From: Watersipora subatra
Lineage: Eukaryota > Bryozoa > Gymnolaemata > Cheilostomatida > Watersiporidae
Reading direction: 5' to 3'
DNA: 64,000 bases
Assembly: GCF_963576615.1 (NCBI RefSeq)
Contig: NC_088717.1
Coordinates: 55,445,526 to 55,509,525, forward strand
Shown in pieces: positions 15,101 through 38,036 of the stretch; positions within the stretch are counted from its first letter, which is position 1; every line of letters begins with the position of its first letter. A program made the translations under genes and the position numbers. The notes under the pieces are model-generated. The model was not told where the DNA came from, did no database searches, and saw only the letters and a program-made list of their open reading frames with translations.

Positions 15101-18100
15101 AACCAAAAATGAAGTGGAGAAACATCCATCATGGTTCCCAACACCTAACAGCTTAAAAGCCTCACGGAGGGCTGCCATAAAACCAAATCATAGTACCGTA
15201 GTACTTTTTGGACTATAAACCGCACCCCTATATAAGCCGCATCTGCTTTATTTTCCAAAAACCGATAATAAAACAATACATAGGCCGCACCTTTGTATAG
15301 GCCGCAGAACTCAGGACGGTGCTTTTTAACACGGCAACAACTTTGCTGTTTAAAACGGAACAGTGTCTAACGGCATTATTTCGTATTAACCGACGCTTTT
15401 TAACCTAGTGCCTAACGGAACAGTATCGTTAGGCATTGTTTCGTATTTTCTTTCACGGCTAGAGGCGCACTAACCAGAGATTATGGTTAATGCGCCCTAG
15501 CGGTCAAAGAAAAAGCCACGGAATAGCCGCACCCTTATATAAGCCGCATGGCTCAAATCATCAGAAAAAAGTAGCGGCTAATAGTTTGAAAAGTACGGTA
15601 GAGTCTTAGTCGAATTGGAGAGATCGAGAGAGATAGAGAACAGTGTACTGTTAACTCAGTCAATTGGTAGTTCCATGCTGACGAGTGAAGTTAATTGGTT
15701 TTTTGCAAGTCATGCAAAAGAAATGTGAGCCATGAAGGAAACATTTTAATAGAATTTTTCTTGTAAACACATATGTTCTATAGACTATCTGATTACAGAG
15801 AATAGATTGACTAAGAAAACAAGTAGATGCAAGAATGAGGAAGTTGAACCCTGAAGAGCTAATTAAAAGTTTCGTATTTCTAATCACTTGGCAAGTCACA
15901 GATTACTTCAGTCTTAGAATGAACTGATCAAATAAATGACGACCACATCAAACATTACAGACTGCCATATTAGATACGCATATCAACTCACCTATTTCTC
16001 TGAGTCGCTCCTTAGCTCGTTTATTGCCTTGTTTAGCCGACTCGTTGAGCCAATAGAGAGCCTTCTCACCATCTATGCCTAGTCCGCCTAAAATATTGAA
16101 AAAAAAATGCAAGAAAATTGCGGAGATAATCGAAAGTTAACTTACAAAAACAAAGGATCCTGTCAAATTTTGAAAAGCAATCTTTCCCAAACCAAAACAC
16201 ATGTAAAGGCATAGCAACTAATTTTGTGTTACTGCTAAAAAACAAAACCTACAACATTTGAGGGCTGGCAGTGCGTTTATGTACTACTTGGATTATACTT
16301 CTAAATATTCTACCTAATGGACTCCTAAATTTGTTTCGTTTCTACTAAATGTCCGTTATAGGTAAACAAAAGTTGATAAATCTAATTTAAAAGGCAGTTT
16401 GAGGCAGTTTAACTAATTAGCTTTCGGAATCTCTTCTGTATTATGCCAAAGTTGAAAAACACATTCTCCACTGAATGAGCCTGCAACAGTTGCGATCAAG
16501 CCATCGATATACAGTGAAACATGGATAACTCGCCCTCGGATATATCGAACACATGGTTAACTCGGATGGATTTGCTTGGTCCGTTCCCATGCAATGATAA
16601 ATGGCTCTATATAACTCGAACTCAACACTGTTATTTCAAACTGTTTTTTGCCCAACGGCTACCGAAACGGTTGCTATCGCTTTAGAAAATCACTTTATTC
16701 CAAGCCATAAAGGTAAACCTCAACTTTTCGTAATTCATAAGCGTCGTTATTACCACCATCGGCAAAATATTTTTGTCAACGACTTCTCTAAAGGTTTGGT
16801 GAAATTTGATTTATACCAAACATCCGCGTAGCGATCGCCCTTCGGAAGCGAGGTAAAGTGAGGTAATCTTTGCATAAACTTCAAGAAAAATCGGCAAAAT
16901 TGATCGTGGGTAAAACGCTCAAAAGAAAAAGATGTCTTTTCTTTTGAGCATTTCAACAACGATCAAGTTTTGCCAATGTCAATCTAAAAAAACGTCCTGG
17001 CAATAACATCACCTCAAACAACGAACCAATCTCAAGTGATAGAAAAATCTCTATACTTTTTGATAAAAACGTTTTAAACTTTACATTAGAAGCATTTAAT
17101 TTGAAACAAGCCATTTGTGCTTTTGCTTTATATTATAGTTTGTATATGTACATGTATCTACTAATAAATAAGTAAATACATGGACTTGTGACAGTGCACT
17201 GATAACTTGAACGCTCTGATAATTCGAACACTTTTGCTCGGTCCCTTGAAGTTTGAGTTATCCGAGTTTCACTGTATATATATTTCTCAAAGAATATTTT
17301 ATGTCTGTATGTGGTGTGTCTGCATTCCCGCTATAGCTATTAAAATCTTGGAATAAAGAACCTGAACCGAAGAAGATTTGATCTCGGACCCTACCGTTCG
17401 CCAGTCCGACACCCTAGTTAGCTTACTACAATTTTCCATTGGTAATATGCCAGGCTAATAGCAAGTGTCAGACAACTCTCATTACTTCTCATTGTTTAAA
17501 AGCTGATTTTTAAAACTCAGGCAATGCCGGGTAGCACAGCTAGTTGTTTATAAATGCAACATCACTACTAATTGTTTAAGAACAACTACAACCTGATGAT
17601 AGATAAAAAAAATTCCTTATTCTATTCCCCAACTGTTACCTATTGAATTCCAAACATAAGTTGTTACCACCAACAACAGTATTGAATAGGTATTATGAAA
17701 TTAAGTGACGGATGACCAAACAAATTTCCTTTTTTTGCAATTTGTTCTAGCCCATTATACAAACAATGACTATTTTATACAGGGGAGTCCAAATTTTAGT
17801 AACTCAAATTTTACAATCTCTTTCACATGCAAGCGGTGGCATCTATTGAGTCGTGGTTCAACTGACATGGTTCTTGGTCAACAAAACGATTAACAGCAAA
17901 TACTGCTTGTACGCATTACAAATGAAATTGAAATAGTGATATTCGTTTCAACCTCTCTGCTTGCAAATAGACTATGAAGAGTAGAAAGCTAAGTCGACTA
18001 CAGAGAAATATCACCAGAATCTAACGAGAGATCTTAAAACTTCTTTTTTAGATCTGTACAAAAAAAATTTTTTTTAAATTATTCTTGGACCAGTTTGTCA

Positions 18101-27100: not shown

Positions 27101-30100
27101 GCCGCATAGACGGAAGAGAACAACTCCCTTTCAGTGCAGCTGATGCATCAGGTGCAGTACGCCTTGTGACAAGCTGTTGTGTTGCTCGCCCGCTCGACGG
27201 GGGGACAACTCCGCAAAAACAACAGTTTGTCAAGACAGGCTATATTATAACTGATGTAATGGATTTGTTGACTACTATTGCCGTAGTCAAACGCTTAAGC
27301 TAGCTGCCCCTAAATCTGAAGGTTCTGAGATCAAATCCAGTGCAATACGGATTTTACATTGCTAGATTTTAATGGTTATAATGGGACACGGGGATGAAAA
27401 TAAATGAGGGATGAGATATATATAGAAAACTTGTTCACCAATGTAACACATAACAACAGTAGGTGCTGAGTGAATTATTTACAGAATCTTCAAGATTGAA
27501 TGGTTGCAGCATTCAAAGACATGATTAAAATGATATTCAGAATTATAGCGCAGAGTATTGAACCAGGTGTGACCAATACTATAATCCCTCCTACTTAACA
27601 GCTTTAACTATAGTGAGTTCATTGTATCGCGGGTGTTGCAATCACTAGAGTTTCTTCACCCTTATTATAATAACTAGAAATTCCCCTGTCATACAGCTTA
27701 CGACCAAAGTGATATTGGAAAAAAGAAAGGGTACTGATAGTTGAGAAATGCAATATTAGCAGTCAAATGGCACTGCAGTGCAATGGTTGCTGTAATGTAC
27801 TGGGTGTTATTATGTACAACAAACAGCAATAATGAAAGGAAAAGATTATATGTTTATATCTTCCCCCTGCAATAGGAGAAATGTAATATTAGAAGTAAAA
27901 TGCACTGATATTATTAGAATAACCCATATTATTAATATAGTAATACAGTAATAATAGAAAACCAATGCACAAGTTTGTTTACATTTCAAAACGTCATAGC
28001 AATCAATATCAAGAAGTTGTGATATTTATCTAGATTTTTAGAAAATCTATTTAACAAAATTATTTAGAAAAAATAATAACAGTAACATATTGCCCAACAT
28101 CGGTCACTATATACTTTGATCTTGTAAATTCGAATGATTATTCTTATAATTAAACCTTATAAAATCGAATAATTATTCTTATAATTAAACATCGTAATAA
28201 TCTTATAAGAATCGTTAGAAAAATATCATTGTCATTTCTGTTACTTTCACTGCTTTGGACAACAATTGGAATACCAAAGTACTCATAAGTGTCTAAAATG
28301 TCAGTTACTTTGAAATCGGCAAAAATGAAACGATTACTTTTCAGTACTTCCACGTTAGTTACAGAAACCTTTGGCAATTCGACAATGCTATAGACTGGTG
28401 AAATGAGCATGTTTTTCTTGTGAAATGCGCACGACTTAATGGTTCTACCCTCTGTCTCACGGCCTTCTCGGCGTTTCGCTGGCTGGTCTTAATTTGGATA
28501 AAAAAGGCTTGTCAAAGTTTTAATAGCAATTTTAGGTCCAATTAATCTGTCCATTTATGTATAATCCGATCAGATGGGTACGGTTTAGGATATTGTCTAC
28601 AAATTTCAAAGACTTAGTAACATATTTAAATAGGTTTATATGTGTTTTGTATTTTATTGTGTTATTGTATTATTTTTTATTGTGTTTTTATTATACTTAA
28701 ACGACTCCATTGAAAAATGGTTAAATTTGTTGAGGAGATTTTGGTACAAGGGTTTGAGATGGTCGTTGATGAATAATTTTCGTGAGTTGTCTGCACATAC
28801 GCATTTATCATAAAGCTCTCGAACAATCGCTTCACTCATGTTTGGTTGTGGGATGATAATTTATGCTTAAAGGAGGTAATCATCTTCTCATTTTGAAATG
28901 AATAAATTAAAGAGTCGGTACAGTATACAGCACTACTGTATATTTTATTGTCACTATGTGACTCCAGGACGATCCCTTCACCTGCAGTGACCTTCATTTG
29001 GATAATCATAACAATACACTGTCAGTAACATCGTCATTAAGGCCTGACTACAGAGCGGATAGTCTATTGATGTGAAAGTCTCCTAGCAATGAGCTGGTTG
29101 ATGTTATTGGTAAAAATAAAAGCTCTTTCTTGATATCTATGGATTTCATATTGTATATACAAGGTACTAAACAAGTATGCAGCATGTAAGTACATGTACA
29201 TGCCCTACATGTGCATGTACTTACATGTTTAATAATTACAGAAGCTTTAGAGACAGCTAAGTTTTCTGAAGTGTTACAACTAGGGTTCACACTTCAAAAG
29301 CGTCTAGTTTCTATTTCATGTAAGTTCTCATTTTGCAAATGGGTCTCCACAACCTCGGCAAAATAGAGGAGGGATTACTGAACTATTGATTAACTATTGA
29401 TCACTTATTGAATATACACCGATCACTTGTAAGTATGGACTATGGAATTCCATACTAAAATACATGTCATGCATAGCTATATTTTAAAAGATTAGCATAC
29501 TCTCAACCTTTATTAAGGCATATTGCGGTTATATTAAAAATGCTTTGTAAGTTTTAGTAGTACAAATGGTATTCCATTTAGAGACAAAAAAGAGGATTAC
29601 TCCAATATTCAATTAATAATTTGGTACAAACACTTTTTGTTCATGTAGCTTGATCCAGGCTCATTTTTGCTCATGGTCGATGTTGTTACGAGCTTGGAGA
29701 GAATAGAAGAAGCAATTCAGAGAAGCCAATCGGTATAGCAAACATTGCAGTAGCTGTTAGTAGCGACAGATATATTTTACACTAATTGCGTCAAAATTAA
29801 CTCATATTCTACCTACAAAAACTGAAAATTTTAAAATGTTCAAAAATATGCTTGTGAAAACAAAATAACTTTTGATTATGCGTGTTATGTTGTTGACTTC
29901 CTTTTTCACAACCTTAAAATCGAATCTTCAATGCGACAATAATCATTCACTCATTCATTCATTCATTCATTCATTCATAGAGTATGGACAGATGCTATTC
30001 AATCCAGAAAACCACTGAATTCAAGTAACTCACTGTCCCAAGCCCTCAATGCCAAGAAATGATCAACTGCCAAATTTTCCTTGTCGATATCTCCTAGCTT

Positions 30101-33624: not shown

Positions 33625-34385
33625 CTGTAACGTAAAATCTTAATGTTATGTAATCGTCTTGTGAAGTAAAATGTAACATAATGATATTTGTGGCAATTGT
33701 GAGACATCAGGTGAAACAGTGACATCAATGGTGAGAAATCAAGGCCAGTGGCAATATGACGAAGGTGGGGAGCTGTCAGATTACGACAGTGTAGGATTAA
33801 TAACTTTATGGATTTTAGAATGCTTGGTGTATATATAGGCTATCGAGGACCCTCCAGTCGGCCTTATTTTATAGCGTTGTTTCAGGTAGATACTTACACG
33901 TTATTTAAAATAGTGTCGATGGCAGCCACCATTAGCACTTGTAATACTAGTAAATACCGATTTTTTCCAGCCATCCAGAATAAATTTAATAATTACCAGA
34001 AAAAATCTAACCCTGAGTTAAGTATTGGTGTGTGCAAGTACATGACTACTAGACAGCGCAATACCCTACAGGATGAAAATATTCGATGGATATAAAAATT
34101 TGCGATTTCGTGAACAGTCAATTCCGTGAATTATTAAATTCCGTGAAAAAGTTCTATTTTTAATCACAAGGGAGAATAACTACTGCCTCAGACTTAAAAA
34201 CTAGTCACTAGGCAGAAATACTAAACGTAGCTGAGTTCCAAAACCTTTTTAAAATAGTTGCCGGGGCTTCGAGTTAACCCCATTGCTAATGCATCACATT
34301 TCTTTACAAAATTATTTAAGGCGTCACAAGTTATTAGGCATCACATCGTCATCGCAAAAATCTCTCCTACAGCCATTTTACATAG

Positions 34386-34655
34386 AAATCAACCTCTAAT
34401 ATCGAAGTTGAGGCCGATTATGATTCTGATCCGGACATAATGGTATGTATTTGATTTGCAGTGCAGATACGTTATTCATAATTAACTGCGTTAGTTAATT
34501 CTTTTGTTAAAAAACTGATCGCGTTCATTAAATGCTTCAGCTATTGTTTTTGTACTTCCTTTACACATGGTAATATTTTTCTTCTGTGTTTACTGCAGAT
34601 TGAGATTAAAACAGAACCTACCGGTATTCTAATTACGAAAACTAAAGACAAGTAG
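34386..34655 (+). pseudogene. 3' remnant of a plus-strand gene (acidic tail, two exons)
   Basis: Possible exon 34386-34442 (acceptor TTTTACATAG|AAAT, donor ATAATG|GTATGT) encodes NIEVEADYDSDPDIM. It joins in phase 0 to 34599-34655 (acceptor TTTACTGCAG|ATTG), encoding IEIKTEPTGILITKTKDK and TAG. An AATAAA follows at 34817. No room for a body of the gene remains between this and the left inverted repeat, so it is probably the surviving end of a longer gene of the element. Confidence 0.35.
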
Positions 34656-34793
34656 TAATATTCACCGAGGCAGGAATATTGGCAGAGAAGCAACTAGTTA
34701 ACCTAGACCACTTCATCAACAACAACTTCTTGATATTGCTGCGGCAAACATGATTATATTATATATTTCATTTCATGTATAGATATATTATAA

Positions 34794-34822
34794 TTTATTA
34801 CAAACTTGAGTGTACAAATAAA
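34794..34822. terminator. Overlapping convergent poly(A) signals
   Basis: Minus-strand AATAAA at 34799-34794 (HIRAN-like gene) and plus-strand AATAAA at 34817-34822 (acidic-tail remnant) sit back to back. Confidence 0.45.
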
Positions 34823-34966
34823 ATATTTCAAATACAAATAAGATTTTACAAACGATAAATGGAGTAAATAAAAACAGTTTCGCCCATATGGCGGTTGTCT
34901 GACAATGAAATTAAACTGATACTCTTGATAAGTAAATACTAGCGTTTAATAATGCTCTCTGACTAG

Positions 34967-35506
34967 TTATTCTGGTAATAGCAGCTCTATATCGAGGTCA
35001 CTGTCTTGGGTAGATGTTAAAGCCGATTCTCTCGCTACTACATGGCTGGTAAGGGAGTTATTATCAGAACTCTCCTCTTGGCTTACTATTGGAAAGTTCT
35101 GCCGGTTGGCAAAAAATTTGTGCTCGTAAAGGCGTTTTTGTTCCTTTTTTAAAACAGATATATTCTCCTCGTTAGCAGCTGCGGTCACTTCTACCTCAAT
35201 TTCAAGACCTCCCTGAATGATTGGTGATGATCTTCTAGGAATGACATCTACCATCCTTGCAGTCATTGTGCCTCCGTGTATGATGAAAAATCTCTCACAC
35301 TAAAACAAATAACGAAGCGGTAGGGATGGAAAAAATAAATACTGCGTTTTACCAAAGAACTAAAGTAAAATTTAATTATTAATTTAGTAAATGGTTTTGA
35401 AAAAAAACTCATTACTTACCACAAGTTGTTGGTTCATCAAAGGCCTCCAAATCGACGAATATTCTTGAAAACCTCTGAACGCAGCAAGAAATTTATAGCT
35501 TAACAT
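34967..35506 (-). CDS. HIRAN-like small protein (two exons, central part of domain missing)
   Basis: Exon 1 is 35506-35420 (ATG at 35506, donor TTGTG|GTAAGT). Exon 2 is 35299-34967 (acceptor TTTGTTTTAG|TGTGAG, ends TAA/TAG-type stop at 34967). They join in phase 0 to 139 residues. Exon 1 gives AAFRGFQEYSSIWRPLMNQQ, the RGF..Y..IW.P opening of a HIRAN-like family common in cnidarian and mollusc genomes. Exon 2 gives CERFFIIHGGTM, then IIQGGLEIEVEV, the family's FF..HGG and QGGLEI closing motifs. The usual centre (RE..N..D..AVAV...VVGH.P) is absent, and the 120-bp intron cannot hold it. A polar acidic tail ends in DIELLLPE. HIRAN domains bind DNA ends in HLTF-type proteins; function here is unknown. 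Family assignment is from memory. Confidence 0.6.
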
Positions 35507-35731
35507 GATCTACTCGTAGTTGTAACCGAGTGCGGTGTGCGCATGCGTAGGGTTAACTCTATCGCTAGCCACAATAGAGTTAACTCTTAATGGAGAGTGA
35601 CAGTGTTCACCCACGAATAAATTAATTCGCGAATATGCATGAAGGCAATTTGCGCGAAACTCAACTCCGCGAATAAATTCATCCTGTAGAGTATTAGTGC
35701 TTTCCCTAGGCTGCGACTGGTTAGTGGGAAT

Positions 35732-36372: not shown

Positions 36373-38036
36373 TACCGTACTTTCGGACTATTAGCCGCTA
36401 CTTTTTTCTGATGTTTTGAGCCATGCGGCTTATACACGGGTGCGGCTATTCTGTGGTGTTTTCTTTCACCGCTAGGGTGCATTAACCGGAATTAGAATCA
36501 ACACTAAAGAAAATTTACACAAATAAGCAGACGTTTCTTTTTTATTAAGCGAGCAAATATATCAGGATTATAAATAAGTAAAGCATTATGGGACCCAAAC
36601 GAAGAAGTTCGTATGAAGCAAGTTTCAAGCTGAAGGCCATCAATTTTGCTATCCATGAAGGAAACCGTGCGGCTGCAAGCATGTTTGACATCAATGAATG
36701 TATGGTGAGACGCTGGAGGGGGCAGCATGAAGAGCTCATGCGATGCTAAAAGTCAAAGAAAGCTTTCAAAGGACATAAAAGCAGGTGGCCTGAACTCGAA
36801 TATGTCCTGGAGGACTGGGTAAACATTCAGAGAGGAGATGGCAGAGGTGTATTCACTGTTCAGATCCGACTTAAAGCCCAAACAATAGCGCGCGAAATGA
36901 ATATTGCATATTTCAAAGCGTGGCCGTCATGGTGTTTCAGATTTATTAGACGTAAAAACCTGTCCATCAGGGCACGGACCACTTTCTGCCAGCAACTTCA
37001 CCGTGACTATCACGAAAAGATTACAAACTTTCACACATTCGTTAAAAGTAAGATACAAGAGCACTCAATTGGACTAGACGAGATCATAAACATGGATGAA
37101 GTACCACTTACATTTGATCTGACTAGGACAGTTAACAAAACTGGCGAATCATCCGTGTTGCTAAAAACAACTGGCCACGAGAGGGCACACTTCACATGTG
37201 TGCTGGCCTGCGCGGCATCCGGACGAAAACTTCCGCCTATGGTAATTTTTAAGCGCAAAACTATGCCTGAAGAACAACTACCGACAGGTATAGTGGTCAA
37301 TGTTAACGCCAAAGGATGGATGATTGAAGGGCTGATAAAGGAATGGTTAAGCGAGTGCTACAGCAAGCGCCTGGGAGGAGTTTTCACAAGAAAAAAGGGC
37401 TGCTTGTTTTGGATAGCATGAGGGCGCACATCACAAATTCAGTAAAAGAGGCGATCAAGAAAACAAACTCAATTCCAGCTGTAATTCCTGGAGGTACAAC
37501 AAAGTATTTGCAGCTGCTTGACATCAGTGTGAACCGGGCATTTAAAGCAGCACTCCGGGCTGAGTGGGAGACTTGGATGACGAGCGGGGAGAAGTCATTT
37601 ACAAAAACCGGCCACATGCGAAAAGCATCATTTTCTGATGTCTGTCAGTGGATCCTAACAGCGTGGAGTTCTGTGAAAGAATCCGCCATCACCAACGGGT
37701 TTAGAAAAGCAGGACTGCTTCGTAAGCCTTCAGAGCCAACTTCACCGGAGGAAGATAGTGACACCGAGAATGAGGCAGACGTGGACAAATGTGATGAAGC
37801 GCTGATGAGATTGTTCAACTCCGACACTGAAGAAGAGGACTTCATGGGTTTCAGCGAAGATGATTAATGTGAAGTGGGTGAAATAAAGTTACCGGTAAGT
37901 AAATACGTACTGATTATTTTCTAGTTCTGCGGGCTATACAAAGGTGCGACCTATGTATTGTCTAATTATTGTTTTTTTTAAATAGAGCGGGTGCGGCTTA
38001 TATAAAGGTGTGGCTTATAGTTCGAAAAGTACGGTA
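36373..38036 (+). mobile_element. pogo/Tigger-type DNA transposon inserted in Gypsy debris
   Basis: Left end TACCGTACTTTCGGACTATT, right end inverted TACCGTACTTTTCGAACTAT, with TA duplicated at both sides as in the Tc1/mariner-pogo group. About 1.66 kb including one broken transposase gene. It lies between the RNase H end (36372) and continuing Gypsy sequence (38037 on), so it inserted after the Gypsy copy. Confidence 0.88.
36588..37867 (+). pseudogene. pogo/Tigger transposase, broken by a stop and a frameshift
   Basis: ATG at 36588 opens PKRRSSYEASFKLKAINFAI, a Brinker/CENP-B-like N-terminal helix-turn-helix ending in VRRWRGQ. A TAA at about 36747 interrupts it. Then come a CENP-B-type HTH (WPSWCFRFIRRKNLSIR) and the DDE_1 domain. 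Acidic residues lie in INMDEVPL, in LLVLDSMRAH and in QLLDISVN, giving a DDD-type triad. A one-base frameshift at about 37370-37400 separates the second half from the first. An acidic tail (EEDSDTENEADVDK) ends at 37867. It cannot encode active transposase as it stands. Confidence 0.88.

Follow-up and report, generated by a model that had tools for sequence, protein, structure and literature searches.

The element and its genes in the window

In the window, i.e., the complete 64,000-nt stretch of Watersipora subatra DNA analyzed here, a copy of a non-autonomous DNA transposon with terminal inverted repeats (TIR) was identified. The 24-bp inverted ends (TACCCTACAGGATGAAWWTATTCG) bound the region 34064-35691 and are each flanked by a TA dinucleotide. 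The inverted arms (34060-34085 and 35670-35695) have a length of 26 nt and a complementarity of 88%, with a spacing of 1,584 nt. The ends of the family consist of TACCCTACAGGATGAA, followed by AA or TT and then TATTCG, resulting in a length of 24 bp. The annotated features are given below, with the basis of the annotation in brackets.

34064..35691, no strand: whole element, 1,628 bp, copy of a non-autonomous TIR DNA transposon (alignment to the family majority)
34062..34063, no strand: TA of the target-site duplication, left side (sequence, family copies, joined flanks)
34062..34085, plus strand: left-end copy of the 24-bp terminal inverted repeat, class AA, TACCCTACAGGATGAAAATATTCG (sequence)
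34404..34442, plus strand: remnant of the left gene, initial piece EVEADYDSDPDIM, followed from 34443 by the donor GTATGT (sequence, majority)
34599..34655, plus strand: remnant of the left gene, last piece, ending at the stop (sequence, majority)
34794..34822: two poly(A)-like words pointing towards each other, AATAAA on the plus strand (34817-34822) and AATAAA on the minus strand (34799-34794) (consensus words only)
34967..35299, minus strand: HIRAN-like gene, exon 2, 110 aa and stop (frame, alignment)
35300..35419, minus strand: HIRAN-like gene, intron, GTAAGT .. TTTTAG (GT..AG) (sequence)
35420..35506, minus strand: HIRAN-like gene, exon 1, 29 aa, MLSYKFLAAFRGFQEYSSIWRPLMNQQLV (frame, recurrence of a 19-bp word)
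35670..35693, minus strand: right-end copy of the 24-bp repeat, class TT, differing from the family end at one position (base 4, C to T)
35692..35693, no strand: TA of the target-site duplication, right side (sequence, joined flanks)

The right-hand gene comprises two exons with a total of 139 aa. It had originally been predicted as a HIRAN-like gene enclosed by terminal inverted repeats with TA at the edges, and this arrangement is real: a two-exon gene on the minus strand lies inside the 24-bp ends. The HIRAN label needs correcting, since exon 2 of the window copy lacks approximately 98 bp which are present in the full-domain copies L028 (outer copy), L039 and L051. The left gene has lost its family ATG in the window copy, where this codon is altered, and for the family left-gene peptide no match was found in Pfam. 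Both genes, the left one on the plus strand and the HIRAN-like one on the minus strand, converge at 34794-34822, and each has a predicted AATAAA word there. A transposase frame was not recognized in the window copy. The identity between the window copy and the majority sequence of 29 copies, which is 1,805 bp long including both TA, was determined to be 93.8%.

To the right of the element, RNase H-like retroelement pieces were found. Past these pieces and 680 bp right of the HIRAN-like element, a pogo-like element (36373-38036) with its own inverted ends (TACCGTACTTTCGG.. / ..CGAAAAGTACGGTA) contains DDE_1 frames at 36897-37421 and 37343-37867.

Family size, insertion sites and linkage of ends and gene

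The exact 24-bp end was found 653 times on the forward and 653 times on the reverse strand of the genome (1,306 in total; reversed-pattern control 0 + 0), so that it is by no means a single occurrence. The exact 19-bp word of exon 1 was identified 309 + 298 = 607 times (control 0). Since 1,306 exact ends and 607 exact exon-1 words stand against controls of 0, chance is ruled out. When the left and the right 79 bp were used as queries against the genome (783.7 Mb), matches were obtained at all scored places, namely 40 of 40 for the left query (best 40 of 946 candidates) and 40 of 40 for the right query (best 40 of 1,545 candidates).

Both ends were detected in 35 of the 40 left-end places read, with a median length of 1,803 bp; among these 40, both ends were not found for L013, L017, L024, L033 and L049. 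These places are the ones most similar to the left end of the window copy, and the sample is thus biased to the window lineage. The TA was kept at both edges in 30 of the 35 two-ended copies, and the HIRAN-like region was present in all 35. Together with the 1,306 exact ends, these counts support the proposed carriage of the gene by a TIR transposon. For the alignment, six copies longer than 2.2 kb were dropped, as was L022, which represents the same duplicated site as L012, and L053 was added. The 29 aligned copies are 91-96% identical to the majority. In viral contigs, a relative was not confirmed.

On C1, 16 of 22 pairs of adjacent exact ends are spaced by 1.59-1.85 kb. Five longer pairs with distances of 3.0, 3.8, 6.4, 6.9 and 9.6 kb could be larger elements. 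The exact exon-1 word is present in each of the 3.0-, 3.8- and 9.6-kb pairs. No such word lies between the ends at C1:27804756-27811135 (6.4 kb) and C1:29931205-29938079 (6.9 kb), which may represent larger elements or contain nested inserts. The combination of the 24-bp end with a differing interior was found at two places, one of them with a HIRAN match approximately 350 bp inside. Nesting was observed in L028, where one element copy (L028:837-4237) lies within an older full-domain copy. Close to their left ends, L057 and the outer copy of L028 both contain part of the exon-1 region a second time, oriented like the regular one.

A third class of ends, AT (TACCCTACAGGATGAAATTATTCG), accounts for 7 of the first 64 ends listed (C1:2831717, 4530825, 4983273, 22224136, 27292356, 27563171 and 35672127). 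Among the ends listed, the exact exon-1 word occurs at the family spacing for 12 of 28 ends of the TT class and for 10 of 29 of the AA class, and within 2.5 kb for 0 of 7 AT-class ends. The latter result implies that an element with such ends does not necessarily carry the gene. Possibly, the AT class is a family lacking HIRAN; it may also represent a separate family sharing the same transposase, or the autonomous family.

In the range of C1 covered by both the list of ends and that of exon-1 words, an exact end was found at the family spacing for 33 of 52 exon-1 words, compared to 12 of 5,200 shifted positions. The remaining 19 words comprise L050 and L051, which have mutated ends, two with a right-end match, and 15 for which an end has not been seen so far. 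An exact end is not expected for every exon-1 word, because the copies differ from the majority by about 4-9%. HIRAN-like copies lacking these ends had been named as evidence against carriage. All four loci picked by the HIRAN searches have ends (three are two-ended and L056 has the left end only), so that such copies were not encountered among the loci read, with the 15 of 52 words on C1 as a reservation.

Next, the flanks of the 35 copies were joined at a single TA. This resulted in 28 rows crossing the joint in element-free relatives, derived from six copies; the 12 rows inspected have identities of 74-93%. Related empty sites with a single TA, which had been suggested as a check, were indeed recovered, as the joint was TA in 8 of 12 inspected rows (of 28): L011 compared with the window and L024; L025 with L045 and L015; L026 with L033, L014 and L028; and L046 with its own locus. 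In the other four rows the joint was not TA, being TG for L010 (the relative of the window site) and AA for L016 and L020, and the relative of L023 is gapped. The duplicated target comprises two bases; a longer direct repeat was not seen in the listed flanks of the copies. When the window flanks are joined at a single TA, one of the frames runs through 66 codons free of stops, and the insertion in the window interrupts an open frame of a retroelement.

Further dispersed genomic repeats are located in the window at 16510-17281 and 27670-28854. Relatives of the latter repeat contain at least two insertions of the element, as the joined flanks of L011 and L026 align to it.

Identity and decay of the HIRAN-like gene

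The 139-aa protein of the window copy gave no HIRAN match in Pfam at E-values up to 1, owing to a deletion of the central part of the domain. The gap of approximately 98 bp is common to seven copies of the window lineage that were aligned beside three full-domain copies. It removes a stretch reading about EPNNLHDPFAV..VGHLPREISR, which is the core of the domain. The full domain within the family ends was found in L028 (outer copy), L039 and L051.

For an artificial 94-aa HIRAN query, 150 of 551 candidates were scored, all of them matching. Judged by the query range, most of these 150 matches span the middle of the domain. Three of the matches correspond to L028, L039 and L051. Three others (L056, L057 and L058) were chosen for their clean frames, and all three contain the full domain; L057 and L058 are two-ended, and L056 has the left end only. 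Both ends are also present in L053, which originates from the search with the window protein (best 150 of 3,749 candidates).

The frame of L056 scored 26.7 bits against the Pfam HIRAN model PF08797, which is above the gathering cut-off of 24.7. Read as two exons, L051 reached 23.4 bits and is narrowly below the same cut-off. Its best matches in the PDB were HIRAN structures of HLTF, a weak match with an E-value of 0.019. For the L056 frame, single-sequence structure prediction reached a mean pLDDT of 31.6, which is too low for the model to be used. The genome-wide search with the Pfam HIRAN model resulted in 0 matches among 87 scored candidates; it misses the L056 exon despite its 26.7 bits and does not indicate absence of the domain. 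The HIRAN label holds for sister copies within the same ends, and not for the protein of the window copy.

The coding variants of the 29 aligned copies were then compared with all possible single changes (exon 2: 214 synonymous, 719 non-synonymous and 39 stops; exon 1: 49, 197 and 15, respectively). For exon 2, variants present in at least 4 of the 29 copies comprised 6 synonymous and 20 non-synonymous changes, and rarer variants 56 synonymous changes, 171 non-synonymous changes and 5 stops. For exon 1, the corresponding numbers were 1 synonymous change, 5 non-synonymous changes and 1 stop, and for the rarer variants 17, 46 and 6. A clear excess of synonymous changes was not found in either exon, and the gene behaves close to neutrally in the abundant lineage.

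Due to a stop, a frameshift or a truncation, 32 of 35 copies are broken, and both exons are unbroken in only three, including the window copy. Exon 1 is missing in L056, and in L057 and L058 it is not cleanly open as read. When full-domain copies and the majority sequence representing the deleted lineage were compared in pairs, dN/dS ranged between 0.42 and 1.33 and was below 1 in 16 of 21 pairs, in a set that leans to constraint as it includes three copies chosen for open frames. A weak past constraint on the gene is conceivable. In the abundant lineage the HIRAN-like gene is most likely a passenger, and the open frame of the window copy is most likely a matter of luck. The role of a working DNA-end-binding cargo, which the original prediction had considered, does not apply to the window copy, as the core is lost, no synonymous excess is visible and 32 of 35 copies are broken.

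Origin of the element and relation to known systems

The most probable reading, with a probability of about 0.87, is that the window element is a copy, with a dead gene, of a TIR transposon of the cut-and-paste type that is non-autonomous, derived from a larger ancestor, was moved in trans, and carried its HIRAN gene without selection. This reading builds on the ends, the TA duplication, the copy number, the linkage of ends and gene, the full-domain sisters, the shared deletion and the decay. The AT-class ends and the five long end pairs on C1 weigh slightly against it. From these we infer the larger ancestor, the movement in trans, and a HIRAN gene inherited from that ancestor rather than captured from the host. 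The ancestral element would have had 24-bp inverted ends, inserted at TA with duplication of the TA, and contained at least two converging genes: a right gene with two exons and a full HIRAN domain, and a left gene of which two short pieces are left today. Loss of most of the left gene through internal deletion may have produced a form with a length of about 1.8 kb. One lineage would then have lost a further 98 bp or so of the HIRAN exon before it reached a high copy number. The copies would have been moved by a transposase from elsewhere which recognized the shared ends, with the HIRAN-like gene presumably carried along unselected.

An origin of the right-hand gene outside the transposon can be imagined in two ways. 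DNA transposons are known to capture pieces of genes, and a simple TIR element could have captured a host HIRAN-domain gene once and multiplied it as a passenger, unrelated to the ancestral transposon. Such a capture would be consistent with the near-neutral state of the gene and with the lack of the HIRAN exon-1 word near all seven AT-class ends. However, the gene possesses a start, an intron, a stop and a facing poly(A)-like word of its own and converges with a second gene, which resembles a resident gene more than a fragment, and a two-ended copy without the HIRAN-like region was found in 0 of 35 cases, so that capture appears unlikely. The probability is virtually negligible that the gene belongs to a host gene family at whose edges inverted ends occur by chance or because small elements were inserted there later. 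Apart from the presence of open frames, nothing agrees with it; it is already refuted by the TA at both edges and the empty-site relatives, and the fixed spacing between end and exon 1 (33 of 52 compared to 12 of 5,200 shifted positions) stands against it as well.

A different question is whether the gene served the transposon. The HIRAN domain of HLTF binds 3′ DNA ends, and the protein might accordingly act as a functional accessory that binds free 3′ ends after excision or guides repair, supplied to the family by the full-domain copies. The retention of the full domain in several copies, the full-domain exons without internal stops among the matches of the HIRAN query (three of them being L056, L057 and L058), dN/dS values below 1 in 16 of 21 pairs, HLTF as the best PDB match (E 0.019) and the end binding established for the HLTF domain all point in this direction. 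The abundant lineage, however, spread with the domain core deleted and hence did not need the gene in cis; it shows no synonymous excess, 32 of 35 copies are broken, and exon 1 is missing in L056 and not cleanly open in L057 and L058. Such a function is thus considered quite improbable for the family, and the intact gene may have acted as an accessory in the ancestral element, though this is unproven. A wider proposal, an undescribed TA-inserting lineage with a stand-alone HIRAN protein as second gene handling 3′ ends or repair intermediates, from which the numerous HIRAN-like genes noted for some invertebrates would have descended, is rather doubtful.

The preferred reading of movement in trans calls for a transposase encoded elsewhere. 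Among the copies read and the matches listed, neither an autonomous element nor a transposase gene within these ends was found. For DDE_1 (best 150 of 718), 14 listed matches on C1 are in the range of the 100 ends listed, the nearest being 14.6 kb from an end; for DDE_3 (best 150 of 488) there are likewise 14, the nearest at 15.1 kb. Among the matches listed, one DDE_3 match (C6:34052940) is located about 2 kb outside a right end, i.e., not in the element. In L033, a left end is followed about 1.2 kb on by ALS2CR8 and RNase H-like pieces, from which an ALS2CR8/ZSWIM-like (MULE-like) transposase could be suspected to move the family. The left part of this sequence recurs at 39 other places that were scored, in none of which the match begins at query base 1 (the left end), and in the ALS2CR8 copies L054 and L055 the family ends are absent from the stretches read (2.2 and 2.3 kb). 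This partner was rejected as very improbable, and L033 is best read as a separate ALS2CR8 family nested in a left end.

The inserted sequence, L033:254-1112, corresponds to the left portion of a transposon of the ALS2CR8/ZSWIM-like type and represents a repeat family of its own, with 84-89% identity at the 39 further scored places. The two copies L054 and L055, one on C1 and one on C6, share 99.3% identity over 2 kb and may thus have moved recently.

The HIRAN-like gene is widespread in the genome of Watersipora subatra because it is transposon-borne, and frames of this abundant family should not be counted as host DNA-repair genes. HIRAN is known as a domain from replication-fork reversal; if the autonomous element regularly included the intact gene, transposition would be linked to a domain of this process. 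The similarity to HLTF/Rad5 HIRAN (PF08797) comprises the full-domain sister L056 above the Pfam cut-off and the weak HLTF match of L051. Unlike HLTF/Rad5, the gene described here is small and has two exons, a helicase or RING part was not seen, and the window copy lacks the domain core.

The closest known systems are non-autonomous TIR DNA transposons that insert at TA, with Tc1/mariner (IS630) including pogo in first place. TA duplications are also described for PHISTA and ESTA (PMC12730594). The family shares with these groups the short inverted ends, the TA duplication and the many copies of one size class; unlike Tc1/mariner, PHISTA and ESTA, it has no transposase seen here, its ends start with CCCTACAGG, and a HIRAN gene is aboard. 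A superfamily cannot be assigned since no transposase was seen, and the TA duplication alone is insufficient, as it is shared by PHISTA and ESTA (PMC12730594).

The ISL2EU elements of the PHIS superfamily are likewise animal DNA transposons with 2-bp duplications. They are described to duplicate AT within A|AT|T, with ends usually starting with GG, and their autonomous forms mostly contain two genes, one for the transposase and a second for a YqaJ nuclease domain protein (PMC4482050). ISL2EU was rejected as an assignment, as the family duplicates TA and has ends starting with CCC, compared to AT and GG in that description (PMC4482050).

Among the listed titles of the literature on HIRAN, no HIRAN gene in a TIR transposon was found. 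The carriage of TET/JBP genes in fungal DNA transposons (PMC12730594) is similar in that a DNA-acting domain occurs inside several kinds of DNA transposons. The domain and the hosts are different, and the fungal elements encode transposases (PMC12730594). Transposons with an extra gene are already known, and the family identified here is a non-autonomous TIR family that inserts at TA and contains a HIRAN gene as a relic.
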